Below are positions 5,415 to 28,842 of a stretch of DNA of 64,000 bases, piece after piece. Both the position numbers and the translations under genes were made by a program. The stretch covers positions 248,001 to 312,000 of the forward strand of contig NZ_JJMW01000019.1 of assembly GCF_000714435.1 (NCBI RefSeq), written 5' to 3'. The DNA is from Exiguobacterium alkaliphilum 12/1 (GTDB taxonomy: Bacteria; Bacillota; Bacilli; Exiguobacteriales; Exiguobacteriaceae). Position 1 is the first letter of the stretch, and each line of letters starts with the position of its first letter. Under the pieces are notes generated by a model. The model had not been told where the DNA came from. It was given only the letters and a program-made list of their open reading frames with translations, and did no database searches.

Positions 5415-6419
5415 TTAAGAATGGGCGGTGACGTTCCATGTCGTCAATGCTTCGCGAGTCGCCTCGAGTGCATCCACGTTACCGAGTGTGACTCGAATCC
5501 CGGTCGCTTGACGCGAGACGTGAATCCCATGTGAAGCGAGATGTTGCCACAACGCTTCAGGCTCGTTAACCGTCACATAGAGGAAGTTCGCCTCAGACGG
5601 ATAGACGTCACCCACTTCTGACAGCAATTCAAGCCACTGCTCGCGCAGGTGGTGATGCCACGTGATGGCCTCTTGCACGTATGACGCATCCGCTAAAAAC
5701 AGATTCGCAATTTTAGCGCTAAAGCCACTTACGTTAAATGGCGGCACGAACTGGCGGAAGTAATTCGCCAAGTCGCTGTTTGTCACCATGAAACCGATAC
5801 GGATATTGGCGAGACCGAACGCCTTTGATAACGTCCGGAGCACGATCACGTTCGGAAAAGCATGGAGATGTGAAACCATACTCGCGTCCGGCGTGAAATC
5901 GATATACGCCTCATCGACGACAAGGTAGGGCACTCGTCCAGCGAGGTCGCTCAACTCAGCGACTGACCATTGTTTTCCGGTCGGATTGTTCGGGTTTGAC
6001 AGCAACAGTAGCTTTGGTTCATGTTCCGTCACCGATGCGACGAGACCGTCGAACGACAAATCATTCGTTTGAAGGTGACGTCCGTGCGCAATCGTTGTAA
6101 AAATCGGATAGAGGGCGAAATCCGGATTTGGAGACAAGACGACGTCTTCAGGCGACAAGAGCGCCTGCGTGACGACATGAATCATTTCGTCACTGCCGCA
6201 TCCGACGAGGAGCTGATTCGGTTCGACCCCAGCGTAGGCGGCGTAACGCGTGAACAGCTCATCGATTGGCTGTACCGGATACTCGTGCAAGTCATCAAAC
6301 GAAATGGCTGACAGTTGCTGCTTGATGCGGTCCGGGACCGGGAATTGGCTTTCGTTTTGATTCAAGCGAAAACCGGTTGGATAGGTAATTGGATAGATTG
6401 GCAGTGAGACAGGTCTCAT
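5415..6419 (-). CDS. hisC: Histidinol-phosphate aminotransferase
   Basis: A 334-residue fold-type I PLP aminotransferase converting imidazole acetol phosphate to histidinol phosphate. RLNQNES near residue 18, NPNNPTG near 142, DEAYIDF near 169 and the PLP lysine K199 in RTLSKAFG are the HisC signatures. ATG 6419 is taken because it overlaps the stop of the upstream gene (ATGA); a longer frame from 6443 would run into it. It lies outside the his operon, 3 kb away and on the other strand, cotranscribed with an amino-acid binding protein. It may also act on aromatic amino acids, as HisC does in some Bacillales. Confidence 0.9.
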   Translation of the reverse strand: MRPVSLPIYPITYPTGFRLNQNESQFPVPDRIKQQLSAISFDDLHEYPVQPIDELFTRYAAYAGVEPNQLLVGCGSDEMIHVVTQALLSPEDVVLSPNPDFALYPIFTTIAHGRHLQTNDLSFDGLVASVTEHEPKLLLLSNPNNPTGKQWSVAELSDLAGRVPYLVVDEAYIDFTPDASMVSHLHAFPNVIVLRTLSKAFGLANIRIGFMVTNSDLANYFRQFVPPFNVSGFSAKIANLFLADASYVQEAITWHHHLREQWLELLSEVGDVYPSEANFLYVTVNEPEALWQHLASHGIHVSRQATGIRVTLGNVDALEATREALTTWNVTAHS

Positions 6420-7177
6420 TCCGTTGGCTCCATTGAGAACCATTTCTTCGTCAATTCATCGATTTCACCTGACTCCATCATCTTCTTCAATTCGTCATTA
6501 AACTGGTCACGCAAGTCATCCTCTAACTTGAAGGCGGCCGCTGAACCTTTCTCGCCATCTTCTTTCAATGCGAACGTGTAAAATCCTTGATCCTGGTCCA
6601 AGTATTTTTGAGCGACCGTGTCTTCGATGACCATCGCATCGATTCGACCTGTGTTCAGTTCTTGTACGATTTCAGGAATCTTGTTCAATGAGACGAGCTC
6701 TGCGTCTGGTGCTTGTTCTTTAGCGATGTTTTCTTGAATCGAAGCCGTTTGGACGCCAATCTTTTTGCCGGCGAGCGCTTCAATCGACTGGAGCGATTCG
6801 TCTTTTGACATAATCAAGTTCGTCGCGGATAGATAGATGTCTGAGAAGGCGGCGTTTTGCTTCCGCTCTTCGGTCGGCGTCATGCCGGCCATGACAAAGT
6901 CGACCCGACCGGCGTTAAGTGCACCGAGTAGACTCCCGAAGTCCATGTCCTCAATTTTTAATTCATACCCGAGACGTTCCGAGATTGTTTCGGCAATCTC
7001 GATATCAAATCCGACGATGGCGTCCCCGTTGGCCGTGTCGACGAATTCATATGGAAAGTAATCGGCGCTCGTCCCCATGACGAGTGTCTTTTTCTCTTCG
7101 CCCGTCGTCTTTTGACTGCAAGCTCCAAGTGCGATGGCACTCACGACGAGTGCTCCTGTTAACAACCATTTCTTCAT
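6416..7177 (-). CDS. Amino-acid ABC transporter substrate-binding lipoprotein (SBP family 3)
   Basis: A 253-residue lipoprotein with signal peptide and lipobox LGAC (lipidated Cys20). The mature part has the SBP_bac_3 pattern: ADYFPYEF, GFDIEIAETI, LLGALNAGRVDFVMAGMTPTEER, GKKIGVQTAS and a C-terminal ELTKKWF. Such proteins bind polar or basic amino acids outside the membrane and hand them to an ABC permease. No permease or ATPase gene is beside it; the only partner is hisC, translationally coupled through a 4-base overlap. This suggests, but does not prove, histidine or a related amino acid as ligand. Start ATG 7177 follows AAGGAGGAA. Confidence 0.88.
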   Translation of the reverse strand: MKKWLLTGALVVSAIALGACSQKTTGEEKKTLVMGTSADYFPYEFVDTANGDAIVGFDIEIAETISERLGYELKIEDMDFGSLLGALNAGRVDFVMAGMTPTEERKQNAAFSDIYLSATNLIMSKDESLQSIEALAGKKIGVQTASIQENIAKEQAPDAELVSLNKIPEIVQELNTGRIDAMVIEDTVAQKYLDQDQGFYTFALKEDGEKGSAAAFKLEDDLRDQFNDELKKMMESGEIDELTKKWFSMEPTE

Positions 7178-23117: not shown

Positions 23118-24215
23118 ATGGCTACGAACGTATTGACGTGGTTCGACCACTTTCACACGCATCCGGAAGTGAGCTGGAAAGAAGTCGAGACGACGAAGAC
23201 GATTGCAACGATCTTGACCTCGCTCGGCGTATCGCACGAGACGTTCGATGACGTCACGGGCGTGTTGGCAGAGATTGGGGACGGCGAAGACGTCATCGCC
23301 GTCCGGGCCGATATCGATGCGTTATGGCAACAAGTCGATGGGACGTTTCAGGCAAACCATTCGTGTGGTCACGACGCGAACATGAGCATGGTGCTCGGCG
23401 CGCTCGATCTTTTGAAAGATGAGCCGTTACAAAAACGGGTCCGCTTTATCTTCCAACCGGCAGAAGAGCAAGGCAACGGTTCGCTCGCGATGATTGAGAA
23501 AGGCGCCTTGATCGATGTGACGGAACTATACGGGATCCATCTGCGTCCAATCGAGGAGCTCGCGCTCGGTCAGTTCGCGGCGACGATTCAACACGGGGCC
23601 GCCATCTTTTTAAGAGGCAAGGTCATCGGCGACGATGCGCACGGGGCACGTCCGCACCAAGGACAAAACGCGCTCGACGTCATGTTCACGATTCATCAAC
23701 AGTTGAAAAACATCTATCTGTCGCCGTTCGAACCTCATTCTGTGAAGTTGACCGGGGTGCAGGCCGGCAGCGACAACGTGAACATCATCCCTGGGAACGC
23801 CACGTTCTCGATTGACGTACGGGCCCAATCGAACGAGGAATTGCTCGCCTTGCGTGACCGGGTCGAGACAATGCTGCATCAGATTGAATCGCTTCACGGG
23901 GTGACGCTCGAGTGGGAGTGGCAAGACTTCACACCTGGAGCCGTCGTCGGCAAACGCTCGAGCCGGCATGCGACGGATGCGATCACGAGTCGGTACGGAA
24001 AAGAGGCGCTCGTCGAACGGATCGTGACGTCAGGGAGTGATGATTTTCATTTTTATACGGTGAAAAAACCGGAACTCGACGCAACGATGATTGGCATCGG
24101 CGCCAACTTGACGCCGGGGTTGCATCATCCGCACATGACGTTCGATCGGTCGGTTCTACAGGAAGGGGCAGTCTTGTTAGCGGATACGTTGCGCCGGGCT
24201 GCCACGGAAAAATGA
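23118..24215 (+). CDS. M20-family amidohydrolase (AmhX-like)
   Basis: A 365-residue metal-dependent deacylase of the M20D group. RADIDALW, NHSCGHDANMSMVLGA and QPAEEQGNG hold the metal site and the catalytic Glu; the dimerisation domain (about residues 180-280) contains DDAHGARPHQGQNALDV and NIIPGNATFSIDVRA. Such enzymes release carboxylates from N-acyl amino acids, including N-succinyl or N-acetyl forms. The HD-x-H pattern of the family reads HDAN here. Nearby racemase and GNAT genes suggest an N-acyl amino acid as substrate. It has its own terminator. Confidence 0.85.
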   Translation: MATNVLTWFDHFHTHPEVSWKEVETTKTIATILTSLGVSHETFDDVTGVLAEIGDGEDVIAVRADIDALWQQVDGTFQANHSCGHDANMSMVLGALDLLKDEPLQKRVRFIFQPAEEQGNGSLAMIEKGALIDVTELYGIHLRPIEELALGQFAATIQHGAAIFLRGKVIGDDAHGARPHQGQNALDVMFTIHQQLKNIYLSPFEPHSVKLTGVQAGSDNVNIIPGNATFSIDVRAQSNEELLALRDRVETMLHQIESLHGVTLEWEWQDFTPGAVVGKRSSRHATDAITSRYGKEALVERIVTSGSDDFHFYTVKKPELDATMIGIGANLTPGLHHPHMTFDRSVLQEGAVLLADTLRRAATEK

Positions 24216-24244: not shown

Positions 24245-24261
24245 TTATTGCCAACGTCTAA

Positions 24262-24275
24262 TGTAAGCGTTATCA
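24262..24275 (+). promoter_or_regulatory. Perfect cre site at the nhaC promoter
   Basis: TGTAAGCGTTATCA fits all 14 positions of TGWAANCGNTNWCA. Its last six bases, TTATCA, could serve as -35 for the -10 TATAAC at 24294-24299 (18-base spacer), so bound CcpA would block transcription. Confidence 0.7.
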
Positions 24276-24283
24276 TAATCCTA

Positions 24284-24322
24284 TTAGCGACAATATAACG
24301 ACAATTCTGAATTATTCGCTAA
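24284..24322 (+). promoter_or_regulatory. Operator A of the NhaC/racemase cluster
   Basis: CGACAATATAACGACAA (24288-24304) is a direct repeat of CGACAA with 11-base period. It matches 15 of 17 bases of a site in front of the racemase gene. It is framed by a 7-bp inverted repeat, TTAGCGA (24284-24290) and TCGCTAA (24316-24322), and covers the -10. Confidence 0.55.
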
Positions 24323-24337
24323 CGGGGAGGAAATTTG

Positions 24338-25762
24338 ATGGAACAGGGGAACAAGCAAGAAATGAAACTCGGATGGGCGCTCTTGCCGCTACTTGTCATG
24401 ATCGGGGTCATGCTCGTGGCGATTGTATTGCTCGAGCAAGGACCACATATCCCGCTCATCATCGGGACGGCGGTGGCATCGATGGTCGCCTACAAGCATG
24501 GCTTTAAGTGGAAAGAGATTGAAGAGATGATGTACAAAGGGATCCGGCTCGCCTTGCCGGCGGTCGTCATCATCATTCTCGTCGGTTTGACGATTGGGGC
24601 ATGGATTGGGGGTGGCATCGTCGCGACGATGATTTATTACGGCTTGACGATTATCTCGCCGGCTTATTTTCTCGTCACAATCTGTTTGATTTGTGCGGTC
24701 GTCGCATTATCAATTGGAAGCTCATGGTCGACGATGGGGACGATTGGTGTCGCTGGCATGGGGATTGGACTCAGCATGGGGATTCCGGCAGCGATGGTCG
24801 CGGGGGCGGTCATTTCCGGTGCCTATTTCGGGGATAAAATGTCACCGCTGTCGGATACGACGAACTTGGCTGCCGGCTTGACGCATACAAACTTGTTCGA
24901 ACACATCCGTCATATGCTCTATACGACGGTTCCGGGCCTGTTCATCGCGCTCGGTGTCTACTTTTGGCTCGGCAGACGGTTTAGCGAGTCGGGGACCGAT
25001 TCATCAGACATCACTCAGACGCTCGCGATCTTGCAAGACAGCTTCTTCATTTCACCATGGCTCTTGTTGATCCCGCTCGCGGTCATTGTACTCGTTGCGA
25101 AAAAAGTGCCGGCGATTCCGGCCCTCGTCGTCGGGATCGCGCTCGGGTTTCTCGCTCAATATGTCATTCAAGGCGGGACGCTCGCGGACAGTGTCGGGGC
25201 GTTGCAGAGCGGATACGTCATCAATACGGGGAACGAACTCGTCGACAACTTGTTCAGTCGAGGCGGGTTAGACGCGATGATGTATACCGTGTCGATGACG
25301 ATTGTCGCGATGACGTTCGGCGGAATCTTGGAATATTCGGGTATGCTCCAGTCGATTATGAATCAAATCGTGAAGCTTGCGAAGACGGCCGGTTCGATGA
25401 TTGCGTCGACGATTTTGGCAGGGTTCGCGACGAATGCCACATGTTCCGAGCAATACATATCGATTGTCGTACCGGCTCGCATGTTCGCCGGTGCTTATGA
25501 GAAGATGGGGCTTCAATCGAAGAACTTGTCGCGTGCGCTCGAGGACGGGGGGACGCTCACGTCCGTCTTTATCCCATGGAACACATGTGGCGTGTTCATC
25601 CTCGGAACGCTCGGCGTCGGGGCGTTCGAATACGCGCCATACGCTGTGTTGAACTTCATCGTCCCAGTCATCTCGGTCATCTATGCGTTTACTGGCTTCA
25701 CAATCGCGAAGCTCCATGTGTTACAGACTGTCCCACCGGATGATCAGCGACAAGCGCAATAA
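24338..25762 (+). CDS. NhaC-family Na+/H+ antiporter-like transporter
   Basis: A 474-residue membrane protein with about 11-12 helices. The NhaC hallmark KMSPLSDTTNLAAGLT follows a Gly/Ser-rich helix pair (SIGSSWSTMGTIG, GAVISGAYFGD), and a second conserved region has GFATNATCSEQYISIVVPARMF. NhaC proteins exchange sodium for protons, and some relatives exchange organic acids or amino acids. Between a deacylase and an amino-acid racemase it may move the substrate of this pathway. ATG 24338 has GGGGAGG eight bases upstream; TTG 24335 is an alternative. Confidence 0.88.
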   Translation: MEQGNKQEMKLGWALLPLLVMIGVMLVAIVLLEQGPHIPLIIGTAVASMVAYKHGFKWKEIEEMMYKGIRLALPAVVIIILVGLTIGAWIGGGIVATMIYYGLTIISPAYFLVTICLICAVVALSIGSSWSTMGTIGVAGMGIGLSMGIPAAMVAGAVISGAYFGDKMSPLSDTTNLAAGLTHTNLFEHIRHMLYTTVPGLFIALGVYFWLGRRFSESGTDSSDITQTLAILQDSFFISPWLLLIPLAVIVLVAKKVPAIPALVVGIALGFLAQYVIQGGTLADSVGALQSGYVINTGNELVDNLFSRGGLDAMMYTVSMTIVAMTFGGILEYSGMLQSIMNQIVKLAKTAGSMIASTILAGFATNATCSEQYISIVVPARMFAGAYEKMGLQSKNLSRALEDGGTLTSVFIPWNTCGVFILGTLGVGAFEYAPYAVLNFIVPVISVIYAFTGFTIAKLHVLQTVPPDDQRQAQ

Positions 25763-25765
25763 ACA

Positions 25766-25790
25766 AGGACGCGTCGTCTGACGCGTCCTT
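25766..25790. terminator. Bidirectional terminator, nhaC / regulator
   Basis: AAGGACGCGTC and GACGCGTCCTT form a perfect 11-bp stem with a short loop between convergent stops. Confidence 0.85.
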
Positions 25791-26974
25791 TACGTTGGCA
25801 GCTTGAATTTATAAACGGAACGAGGCCTTCCTTGCGCATAACTCATCTCTTCGCCAATCACCTCGACGTAGCCGGCATCAAACAGCTTTTTGATGAGCCG
25901 TTCCGTCGTCCGGCGCGACACGTGAAGGTAAGCGGTCATCTCTTTGGCGGTAAACTCATGTGTCTGTTTGGCGAAGCCGATAATTTTACTCACGTTCGCC
26001 GGACTGATTCCGAGTCGTTTCATCAAGTCGAACGCCCGGTCTTCTGTCACGCGGTACGCGATTGTTTCGTCTGTTCCGGGGAACGACAACTTTTTCGACG
26101 CGTCGATGATTCGGATCGGGTGATGCGTCGAGGCTGAGAGGGCGATTGTCGCGTGATCATGGGCCGTCTGATAGTCAGGCCCATACCCGATTCCGATTTT
26201 TGTCTCCTCATCGGAAGGGGCGAGTGTCTCGATTTGTAACGCCCGTTCAATCACACCTTTTGTGGTGAGCAGTGAGGTCGTGTCGGAATGGACCTCGACA
26301 TGACCGTGATGTGGCAACGCAGCAAGGTAGGTCTGAAGCCCACGCGTCGTCGAGGCATAGAGCACGACGGCGAATTGGGCCGCATCGGCCTGGGCGTGCC
26401 GGACCCGCTCGATCAGCTTTTCAACGTGAACGACAATCGTACGCGTCGGTTCGATCATGAGCTGGCTGTTATATCCGGCATCAAGCATCTCGTGATGGAC
26501 GCGCTCGATGCTCGTCACGGCAAGCGAGGCGTCATGAGGTTGCTTCGACGCATGAAACGTGAACACGTCCGTAAAGGAGACGTCGGGATCGATTTTCATG
26601 ACGCCCGGTCGAGCCATGTCCGGTAAAGAGGCGAAGATTGACGCCAATCGTTCCGGATCGTTCACATCCATCGTCAAGCGATCGAGCGGGACGTGCTGCG
26701 TAACGCTCGCATGTAAAAGTGTCGTCAAAAGCACCGTCTCGTCTTGGACGACGTGATGCGCGAGTGTTTCCTTCAAATAGGGAAGGGCGTATGCATACGG
26801 GAACGAACCGGAGAAGAAGACGGCGTCGAACGATCCGAGCTGTTGTGCGATGGTGGCCGCTTCTTTCGGATGGTGATAGATGAACGGACTGAACCGGACG
26901 TCATCGAACGAGACGGCGCGCATGACGGTCGAGACGAACGTGTCGGACCCGACGAGCGCGAGATGGATGGCCAT
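25790..26974 (-). CDS. Winged-helix regulator with Rossmann-like and GGDEF-like sensory regions
   Basis: A 394-residue protein not recognised as a named family. Residues 1-120 look like an alpha/beta ligand-binding fold (LALVGSDTFVSTVM, FDAVFFSGSFPYAYALPYL). A middle part contains IGIGYGPDYQTAHDHATIAL, a pattern seen in degenerate GGDEF or cyclase-like domains. Residues about 335-394 form a winged helix: HEFTAKEMTAYLHVSRRTTERLIKKLFDAGYVEV, ending in a basic wing QGRPRSVYKF. ATG 26974 is fixed by AAGGAGG; an earlier start at 26992 overlaps that RBS. It is divergent from the racemase gene and likely controls both nhaC and racemase promoters through the shared 17-bp sites. Confidence 0.7.
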   Translation of the reverse strand: MAIHLALVGSDTFVSTVMRAVSFDDVRFSPFIYHHPKEAATIAQQLGSFDAVFFSGSFPYAYALPYLKETLAHHVVQDETVLLTTLLHASVTQHVPLDRLTMDVNDPERLASIFASLPDMARPGVMKIDPDVSFTDVFTFHASKQPHDASLAVTSIERVHHEMLDAGYNSQLMIEPTRTIVVHVEKLIERVRHAQADAAQFAVVLYASTTRGLQTYLAALPHHGHVEVHSDTTSLLTTKGVIERALQIETLAPSDEETKIGIGYGPDYQTAHDHATIALSASTHHPIRIIDASKKLSFPGTDETIAYRVTEDRAFDLMKRLGISPANVSKIIGFAKQTHEFTAKEMTAYLHVSRRTTERLIKKLFDAGYVEVIGEEMSYAQGRPRSVYKFKLPT

Positions 26975-26992: not shown

Positions 26993-27020
26993 TTTAACGA
27001 CTATTTAACGACAATATAAC
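26993..27020 (+). promoter_or_regulatory. Operator B and promoter of the racemase-GNAT operon
   Basis: CGACTATTTAACGACAA (26998-27014) matches operator A at 15 of 17 bases, with the same 11-base CGAC period. TTTAAC (26993-26998) and TATAAC (27015-27020), 16 bases apart, could be -35 and -10, so the site fills the spacer. Further TAACGA and ACGACA units follow to 27033. The regulator gene starts just upstream on the other strand. Confidence 0.55.
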
Positions 27021-27052
27021 TAACGATACGACAGAAGTAAAGGAGCTTATGT

Positions 27053-28165
27053 ATGAAAATTGAGAAGATTGAAGTGTTTGCCGTCCGTTTCCCACTAAAA
27101 GTCCCATTCGTCGTCAGCTATCACCGCTATGAGGATATGCCGTCCGTCATCGTCAAATTAACGAGTGCTTGCGGTCATGTCGGATACGGCGAAGCGGTCG
27201 CCGATGAGCATGTTACCGGTGAGTCGCTAGAGAGCACGATTTCAATCATCCATCGCTTGCTCGGACCACAGTTGATTGGGGAGAACCCGATGCATATGGA
27301 ACGGATTCACGATGTGATGGACCGGTCCATCCGGGACGTGCCCGCCGCGAAAGCGGCACTCGACATCGCGTGCCACGACCTCGTCGGGAAGAAGCTTGGT
27401 CTTCCGGTATACGACTTGATCGGTGGGCGTTATCATGACGCCTTCCCCGTGACGCATGTCCTCAGTATCGGTGACCCGGATGCGATGGCCGAGGAAGCGA
27501 AGCAGCAACTCGATGCCGGTTACACGTCCATCAAGATGAAAGTCGGGGTCGACGTCGCCTCTGACGTCGCGCGCGTCGCCGCGGTCCGACGCGCGGTCGG
27601 ACCGGACGTCCCGATTCGCGTCGACGTGAACCAAGGCTGGGAGAATGCCGGGAAGACGCTACAGGCGATGCAGCAGCTCATCCCGTATGCGCTCGACTGG
27701 ATCGAACAGCCGGTTCGGGCCGACGATTTCGAGGGGATGGCCGAAGTGAAAGCGAAGAGTGTCGTCCCGATCATGATTGATGAAGGAGTGCGCGGCATGC
27801 CTGAGATGCGCCGGTTGACGCTCATGCAGGCGGCACACAAAGTGAACATCAAACTGATGAAGTGCGGTGGGATCTATCCGGCGAAAAAGCTCGTCCATAT
27901 CGCGGAAATGTCAGGAATCGAGTGTCAAATCGGGTCGATGGTCGAGTCGTCCATCGCATCGAGTGCGGGCTTCCATGTCGCCTTCTCAAGTAAAATCGTA
28001 CGTTCCGTCGAATTGACGGGCCCGCTCCGGTTCGCACAAGATGTCGGGAACTTGCAGTACGATTTGCCGTTCATCCGCTTGAACGAACAGCCCGGACTTG
28101 GGATCGAAGTCGATGAGGCCGTCCTCGAGCAGTTGGCGACGGCGCGGTATGAGGTGACGGGCTGA
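27053..28165 (+). CDS. Enolase-superfamily racemase/epimerase, N-succinyl-Arg/Lys racemase-like
   Basis: A 370-residue MLE-subgroup enzyme. The two-base catalytic pair is Lys163 (second Lys of IKMKVG) and the Lys in VNIKLMKCGG near 267; metal ligands are Asp191 (RVDVNQGW), Glu218 (WIEQPV) and Asp243 (MIDEG). Databases would probably call it dipeptide (L-Ala-D/L-Glu) epimerase, but the DxD motif that holds the dipeptide ammonium group in those enzymes reads ELTGP here. A divergent Bacillus cereus member of this type has been assigned N-succinyl-Arg/Lys racemase activity (recalled). The GNAT gene overlaps by one base (TGATG). Confidence 0.8.
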   Translation: MKIEKIEVFAVRFPLKVPFVVSYHRYEDMPSVIVKLTSACGHVGYGEAVADEHVTGESLESTISIIHRLLGPQLIGENPMHMERIHDVMDRSIRDVPAAKAALDIACHDLVGKKLGLPVYDLIGGRYHDAFPVTHVLSIGDPDAMAEEAKQQLDAGYTSIKMKVGVDVASDVARVAAVRRAVGPDVPIRVDVNQGWENAGKTLQAMQQLIPYALDWIEQPVRADDFEGMAEVKAKSVVPIMIDEGVRGMPEMRRLTLMQAAHKVNIKLMKCGGIYPAKKLVHIAEMSGIECQIGSMVESSIASSAGFHVAFSSKIVRSVELTGPLRFAQDVGNLQYDLPFIRLNEQPGLGIEVDEAVLEQLATARYEVTG

Positions 28166-28842
28166 TGTGGTCTGGGGTTTGGAACGGTCTCACGTTACAC
28201 GTTCGCCATTTGACGGAACAGGATTTACCCGCCATCGAGTCCGTCCAACGAGCGGTCATTGATGAATTGACCGAGTCCGCTCACTATCAAGCGCTCACGA
28301 CTGGCGAGTTTCAAAAACTGTTGGCAGACCGAACCATCATCGGGGCATATCGGGACGAAGATTTAATCGCGTTTCGCGCGCTCCTCATCCCGCCAATCGA
28401 TGCAGAGCATCTCGGCCGGGACATCGGGTACCCGGAACACTCACTCGAGCGCATCATCTATCAGGAAGTGACGAACGTCCATCCGTCGTTTCGGGGTTAT
28501 CGACTGCAACAACATCTCGGCCACCTCTTGATGGAGGCGTTTAGCCAAGACGTCCGATTCGACCTCGTCTGTGCGACGGTCGCCCCGTTCAATATTCCGA
28601 GCTTGAAAGATAAGTTCGCCCTTGGACTTCGGATTGGCGCGCTGAAGCCGAAATACGGGGGCAAATGGCGCTACATCTTCATGAGAGAGCTACACACCGG
28701 TTGGCATGGGGATGGACTCGTCACGTCCGTCGAGATGGCTGACACGGCGCGACAAGTGCGTCTGTTACAGGACGGCTGGTATGGGACGGGTATGCGTGAA
28801 ATAGATGGGACATGGTATATCGACTACGAAAAACAAGCCTGA
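28165..28842 (+). CDS. GNAT-family acyltransferase
   Basis: A 225-residue protein with a GNAT core: LHVRHLTEQDLPAIESVQ at the N-terminus, EVTNVHPSFRGYRLQQHLGHLLM as the acyl-CoA pyrophosphate loop, then ATVAPFNIPSLKDKFALGL and a C-terminal extension. ATG 28165 overlaps the racemase TGA, so the two are coupled. In the known N-succinyl-amino-acid racemase pathway a GNAT enzyme succinylates the D-amino acid before racemisation; that role is inferred from context only, and acetyl or another acyl donor is possible. Confidence 0.8.
   Translation: MWSGVWNGLTLHVRHLTEQDLPAIESVQRAVIDELTESAHYQALTTGEFQKLLADRTIIGAYRDEDLIAFRALLIPPIDAEHLGRDIGYPEHSLERIIYQEVTNVHPSFRGYRLQQHLGHLLMEAFSQDVRFDLVCATVAPFNIPSLKDKFALGLRIGALKPKYGGKWRYIFMRELHTGWHGDGLVTSVEMADTARQVRLLQDGWYGTGMREIDGTWYIDYEKQA

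Follow-up and report, generated by a model that had tools for sequence, protein, structure and literature searches.

Among one-component metabolic regulators, those of the CdaR/PucR type have an architecture made of a sensor, a GGDEF_2 domain and an HTH_30 domain; to our knowledge, no role as nucleotide sensor or enzyme has been attributed to their GGDEF-like domain. PrpR uses an HTH_8 as DNA-binding domain. GNAT partners are a feature of succinylation pathways, and the association of a racemase, a GNAT succinyltransferase and an M20 hydrolase is a known route for the conversion of D- into L-amino acids. This N-succinylamino-acid racemase pathway has reportedly been worked on in Geobacillus. 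The structures 2p88, 2p8b and 2p8c are presumably those of the N-succinyl-Arg/Lys racemase of B. cereus. The B. cereus enzyme of the pathway is mentioned in a published article (PMC4372640).

The locus described here is included in a stretch of 64,000 nucleotides (the window) from the 3.1-Mb genome of Exiguobacterium alkaliphilum 12/1. Judged from the genes alone, racemase, GNAT-like and M20 hydrolase genes are found together here too, as in the N-succinylamino-acid racemase pathway; in addition, the locus contains the genes of a transporter and of an unnamed regulator, together with the operator of the latter. Its features, with positions in the window, are the following.

23118–24215, plus strand: M20-family amidohydrolase, probable N-acyl-amino-acid hydrolase.
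24248–24276, plus strand: candidate transporter promoter, TTGCCA-17-TATCAT (sigma-A-like match, 10 of 12).
24262–24275, plus strand: cre-like sequence TGTAAGCGTTATCA, overlapping the transporter promoter.
24285–24304, plus strand: operator 2, TAGCGACAATATAACGACAA, directly 3' of the candidate transporter promoter; the operator pattern was written without it.
24335–25762, plus strand: NhaC-family transporter (446.5 bits, cut-off 370), probable start at ATG 24338.
25790–26974, minus strand: regulator gene, open frame of 394 codons from ATG (394 aa).
26995–27014, plus strand: operator 1, TAACGACTATTTAACGACAA, between regulator and racemase genes, on the -10/+1 region of the candidate promoter of the regulator.
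27013–27041, minus strand: candidate regulator promoter, TTTACT-17-TATATT (sigma-A-like match, 9 of 12).
27053–28165, plus strand: enolase-superfamily racemase, nearest solved structure 2p88/2p8b/2p8c (518 bits).
28165–28842, plus strand: GNAT-like acyltransferase, probable N-succinyltransferase.

The regulator is probably a one-component, ligand-responsive autorepressor of an N-succinyl-amino-acid racemase pathway, induced by a metabolite of that pathway. The family to which it belongs, its architecture, its operator, the co-location of the genes and the geometry of the promoters were all established by comparison of sequences.

No full-length family corresponding to the 394-aa regulator (400 aa if translation begins at an upstream TTG, according to the open reading frame list) is found in Pfam or NCBIfam. 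Indeed, the only matches are sub-threshold winged-helix ones, all inside residues 314–393, and two weak, chance-like NCBIfam matches (lysA at 144–204 and HisG at 98–137). The preliminary description, which placed this 394-residue protein outside the standard regulator families, is thus borne out, since no curated Pfam or NCBIfam family spans it; a match of the whole protein to a characterised family, named there as one refuting outcome, was found in neither collection. Likewise, the titles and abstract openings searched in the open PMC literature include no description of this regulator.

The regulator is matched in all 19 genomes of its own genus, with 44–100% identity (83% for the relative in Exiguobacterium sp. 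s122), and in none of the 19 genomes of the sister genus. A profile search with the own-genus members (profile A1, 18 of the 19, the gene of genome G018 with its in-frame TAA being omitted) found the family in 129 of the 398 Bacilli genomes at E<=0.01, a threshold that defines presence across Bacilli throughout and takes in a few weak matches. In the retrieved loci, 57 of the 60 matching frames are matched over more than 330 residues; these 57 frames make up the family alignment, from which the G018 gene was again omitted and in which L063 and L189 are one gene. Family frames also occur on plasmids of Bacillus badius, Paenibacillus and Prescottella, where they are labelled 'hypothetical protein', as NCBI does in all three annotated cases, and two actinomycete records contain distant relatives. 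The family is thus unnamed but broad, and the regulator is, by sequence comparison, a member of this unnamed, collinear family. In viral contigs, a first search led only to phage proteins matching in a short winged helix (L070 and L071), with no true relative, and a second one found no relative of the family. The G018 gene (L006/L037) is interrupted by a single in-frame TAA, yet both exact operators are present in that genome.

Three parts can be distinguished along the regulator.

Residues 1–196: candidate PrpR-like sensor (profile comparison).
Residues about 197–300: degenerate GGDEF-like domain (profile comparison).
Residues about 313–394: winged helix (Pfam matches and profile comparison).

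The three-part layout of the preliminary description is supported by profile comparison, mostly through distant relatives, with a moderate likeness of the N-terminus to the PrpR sensor, a strong one of the middle to a degenerate GGDEF domain, and a C-terminal winged helix. When aligned with 30 GdpP GGDEF domains, the middle domain of the family reaches an hhalign probability of 96.4 and a score of 61.2 over 122 columns, against a best score of 16.6 in 60 column shuffles. The IGIGYGPDYQTAHDHATIAL segment, described earlier as GGDEF-like, begins at residue 260. The Pfam model GGDEF_GdpP (cut-off 30) is exceeded in the middle domain of two relatives, from G090 (36.0 bits) and G077 (30.9 bits), and GCH_III in that of L068 (23.4 bits, cut-off 21.3); in the window regulator taken alone, no Pfam model matches the middle domain. 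The sequences thus make a strong case for a degenerate GGDEF-like domain, as in GdpP. In another reading, this domain would be an active nucleotide sensor or enzyme (acting for example on ATP, GTP or c-di-AMP), and the switch would respond to a second messenger in addition to a pathway metabolite; both the whole-domain match to GdpP and the above-cut-off scores in G090, G077 and L068 would speak for it. However, inspection of the window protein reveals no GG(D/E)EF motif, and the GGDEF-like domain of the CdaR/PucR-type regulators is not known to have such a role; we consider an active middle domain very improbable. A non-catalytic middle domain is retained in what follows.

For the N-terminal 196 residues, comparison with a PrpR sensor profile (25 Bacilli PrpR_N proteins and E. 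coli PrpR) gave an hhalign probability of 75.3 along 181 collinear columns; the score was 40.6, whereas 60 column shuffles did not exceed 28.3. The Pfam model PrpR_N (PF06506) has no match in the window regulator up to E=1; it has matches at E<=1 in 9 of the 23 A2 family members (best 4e-4), the top score, 20.2 bits in L069, being below the Pfam gathering score of 29.1. The PrpR_N and GCH_III models, searched in 21 related genomes each, gave no matches at E 1e-3; the domain assignment is therefore drawn from the distant members and from the comparison of profiles. Taken together, these results are suggestive of a PrpR-like sensor; since the sensor of PrpR resembles it, the N-terminus of the regulator is not wholly without precedent.

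As to the winged helix, HTH_11 and MarR_2 match at E<=1 in all 18 own-genus members examined, and PDB sequences searched with the protein itself or with each of the profiles A1, A2 and A3 returned only weak winged-helix matches (best 2d1h, E 4e-4) and chance ones. AlphaFold2, run on the window regulator and its relative L001, gave a mean pLDDT of 40.3 and a pTM of 0.25; only the winged-helix residues (about 330–390) reach blocks near 70–80, and the model is uninformative elsewhere.

Like the window protein, the CdaR/PucR regulators are metabolic one-component proteins in which a sensor is followed by a degenerate GGDEF-like middle and a C-terminal HTH. They differ by the PrpR-like N-terminus and the winged-helix DNA-binding domain of the window protein, in which Pfam reveals neither GGDEF_2 nor HTH_30 up to E=1; for this reason, PucR membership was rejected. 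With PrpR (E. coli b0330) and Bacilli PrpR_N proteins, the window protein shares the two-lobe N-terminal sensor over the 181 collinear columns, whereas it carries a winged helix in the place of HTH_8 and scores below the PrpR_N cut-off. PrpR membership was rejected on this score and because Pfam matches neither a sigma-54 AAA+ domain nor HTH_8 in the window protein or in the family members checked. By profile comparison, the degenerate GGDEF fold is common to the regulator and GdpP; however, the middle domain of the regulator is joined to a winged helix and no phosphodiesterase-domain match is found. Lastly, Lrs14/Sta1, MarR_2, HTH_11 and PDB 2d1h resemble the regulator over its C-terminal 70 residues or so, but Lrs14/Sta1, MarR_2 and HTH_11 correspond to small regulators and the Lrs14 and Sta1 matches lie far under the NCBIfam cut-offs. 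Membership of MarR was rejected, as MarR_2 reaches 24.1 bits in the window regulator for a cut-off of 27 (27.3 in the relative L065), and diguanylate cyclase as the GG(D/E)EF motif is missing. At the C-terminal end, the NCBIfam model NF053860 of an anti-phage protein also matches 12 of the 23 family members (E<=1); an anti-phage role was rejected, since the window regulator is matched by the winged-helix end alone (393–446 of 448).

The neighbouring genes suggest a pathway. The racemase of the window aligns with 2p88 over 363 residues with 518 bits, the next solved relative reaching 245, and meets no NCBIfam equivalog cut-off; it is a probable N-succinyl-amino-acid racemase, and the pathway is perhaps one of D-Arg/D-Lys salvage. 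Pfam reveals no GNAT family in the GNAT-like protein of the window; among 12 of its relatives, 2 match Acetyltransf_1 weakly. The NhaC-type transporter scores 369.8 bits with the arginine/ornithine ArcD model, under the cut-off of 650. In all of the 15 genus loci, the regulator gene is divergent from the racemase gene, which is followed by the GNAT-like gene, and the M20 hydrolase gene lies on the other side of the regulator; the NhaC gene is present in 14 of them. The exception, L049 (G013), retains regulator, racemase, GNAT and M20 genes, no NhaC gene being found in its 13.3-kb stretch, and its genome carries one exact operator. Extending the comparison to 35 loci (those of 15 of the 19 genus genomes and 20 chosen, not at random, from the better class matches), a racemase relative was found within the retrieved stretch in 34, a GNAT gene in 26 and an NhaC gene in 25. 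The sister genus has the racemase in none of its 19 genomes (E 1e-60).

The same genes could be read as a system for salvage of murein or other dipeptides, in which the racemase would be a dipeptide epimerase and the regulator would sense a dipeptide. The solved relatives of the racemase that rank second, 3jva and 1jpm, are indeed dipeptide epimerases, and in the distant loci L062 and L182 the operator precedes oligopeptide-binding-type proteins (under every equivalog cut-off). Dipeptide salvage is nevertheless unlikely in our opinion: the racemase scores 518 bits with 2p88 against 245 with 3jva, its GNAT partner is one found in succinylation pathways, and the transporter is not of a peptide type but matches the ArcD model. 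Within the preferred N-succinyl-amino-acid pathway, sensing of N-acylated or D-amino acids by the regulator, as previously put forward, is a reasonable idea, drawn solely from the gene neighbourhood.

The operator pattern, a direct repeat TARCGAC-N3-W-TARCGAC-RA with a period of 11 bp, was written from regulator-racemase intergenic regions placed side by side. The 3.1-Mb genome contains two exact copies, both in the locus, and none at one mismatch. They probably correspond to the two 17-bp sites of the preliminary description, which would thus be sites of 20 bp (24285–24304 and 26995–27014), and they track the regulator across genomes. Indeed, 396 Bacilli genomes contain 70 exact copies (9 for the reversed pattern, counted by hand) spread over 50 genomes, 49 of which have the regulator, and 67 of the 70 copies lie at 8 kb or less from a family member (distances taken by hand, for regulator matches that could be placed). 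The three copies with no regulator match placed within 8 kb are G070:C8:282450, G208:C14:85379 and G186:C4:2502535, the last being one of two exact sites of G186 and located 1.5 kb from a racemase relative. Outside the genus there are 35 exact sites. The pattern had been written without 24 of them, and 21 of these 24 are at 8 kb or less from a family member. Counted by genome, an exact site is present in 49 of 128 genomes with the regulator versus 1 of 268 without it (Fisher 2e-26, uncorrected for kinship and for the training of the pattern).

Furthermore, the racemase can serve as a control. In 27 genomes from outside the genus whose racemase shows at least 60% identity, a racemase-linked site (zero or one mismatch) is found in 15 of 16 genomes with an adjacent regulator versus 0 of 11 without (Fisher 9e-7), or 4 of 4 versus 0 of 11 (p 7e-4) once the 11 loci used in defining the pattern are set aside. 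Therefore, the racemase gene alone does not account for the operator; all these p-values overstate the case, because related genomes are not independent.

The operator does not extend to the whole family. Its exact form is absent from the 19 genomes of the sister genus and from 79 of the 128 genomes in which the family is matched. Among the most distant members, 14 loci (L072–L074, L171–L179, L187 and L190) have no site within one mismatch; therefore, the operator or its target differs there. In G094 (L067), a divergent regulator/racemase pair is present with no site within one mismatch. In the window, no operator is found within three mismatches upstream of the M20 gene. In L042 (G011), the intergenic region near 5997–6065 has lost one of the two operator repeats and so forms a natural half-site variant.

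The position of the operator relative to promoters bears on the mode of action. In 14 of 15 divergent loci, window included, the -10 of a regulator promoter (9 of 12 or better) ends at the operator edge, versus 1.3% in shuffles. Of the non-divergent sites, 26 were picked by hand. In 20 of them, a sigma-A-like promoter scoring 9 of 12 or more ends just 5' of the site, for instance TTGACA-18-TACTAT before the site of L056 and TTGACT-18-TATAAT before that of L188; in one, such a promoter follows the site. Thinning of close relatives leaves 13 of 19 before the site and 0 of 19 after it, for 12% in shuffles; for the 26 sites, the shuffled upstream control gave 11.1% when the scan range equalled that of the real sequence and 9.5% with a slightly narrower one. 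Promoters ending just before the operator correspond to a repressor-like placement. In the divergent loci, including that of the window, the racemase promoter is weak (7–9 of 12) and the operator covers its -35 and spacer, so that an activator there would fit too.

The regulator could accordingly have a dual action, repressing itself and the transporter while its ligand-bound form would activate the racemase operon from the common operator. The divergent racemase promoter, whose -10 downstream of the site is fair but whose -35 within the site is poor, would suit such an activation. In the sites inspected, moreover, the repeat is oriented towards the presumed target gene, something that repression by occlusion alone does not require. 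Yet the non-divergent racemase relatives (L058, L064, L068, L069, L185 and L186) have candidate promoters of 9–11 of 12 upstream of the site, as expected for a repressor, and we hold the dual action to be rather unlikely.

In the simple autorepressor that we favour, DNA binding, repression, the ligand and the role of the middle domain are what we infer. The winged helix would bind the direct repeat of 11-bp period over the transcription start, the two TARCGAC half-sites presumably placing two subunits on the same side of the double helix. The repressor would thereby block its own promoter and that of the NhaC/ArcD-type transporter; the racemase-acyltransferase operon would most likely be blocked too. 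The inducer would be one of the substrates or intermediates of the pathway, either a D-amino acid (such as D-Arg or D-Lys) or its N-succinyl derivative, and its binding to the PrpR-like N-terminal domain would cause the protein to release DNA. The GGDEF-like middle would have no catalytic part in this process and would serve for dimerisation or transmission. Upon release, the amino acid would be imported, succinylated, racemised and hydrolysed to yield the L-form. The transporter may respond to a second regulator, as TGTAAGCGTTATCA (24262–24275), cre-like by the CcpA consensus, overlaps its promoter and is kept, or almost, in genus relatives; this conservation suggests that the NhaC-type transporter is also under CcpA control.

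We found no named family with the predicted domain combination in a one-component metabolic repressor. More tentatively, the regulator might be the first representative of a family of Bacillota transcription factors, widespread but unnamed, in which a sensor of the PrpR type is joined to a GGDEF-like domain devoid of catalysis and to a winged helix. The own-genus branch of this family would sense N-succinyl-D-amino acids (or D-amino acids) and provide the first dedicated control of succinyl-racemase salvage. A family of 'hypothetical proteins' would become a regulator family with a defined predicted operator and, here, a two-site regulon. If the proposal holds, the N-succinyl racemase pathway gains a regulon, and a metabolite-responsive repressor with only two sites would be of use in biosensor work. 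The 20-bp site alone would allow genes for uptake of D-amino acids or their derivatives to be searched for.

The distant loci give a broader view of the genes located behind the operator. These encode YfcC-like basic-amino-acid antiporters in L066, L180 and L188 (374–434 bits, cut-off 500), an M20 hydrolase in L065, and racemase relatives with 50% (L058) and 55% (L068) identity to the racemase of the window, or only 32–33% in L064, L069, L185 and L186. With the oligopeptide-binding-type proteins, the theme common to the operator-linked genes is predicted amino-acid or peptide uptake and stereochemical conversion. One site in each of L062, L182 and L189 has as first downstream frame one of just 21 or 36 codons. 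At 13432 in L062, 13352 in L184 and 5607 in L189, an inverted copy (GTGTCGTTA) comes after the direct repeat. The GTG that lies next in L062 and L189 opens a 21-codon frame; this arrangement is possibly a leader or a different operator layout. In L183, the site is followed by a frame of 174 codons (6376–6900) that starts like the YfcC-like protein of L180 and ends with a racemase C-terminus, which may result either from a deletion fusion or from an assembly error.
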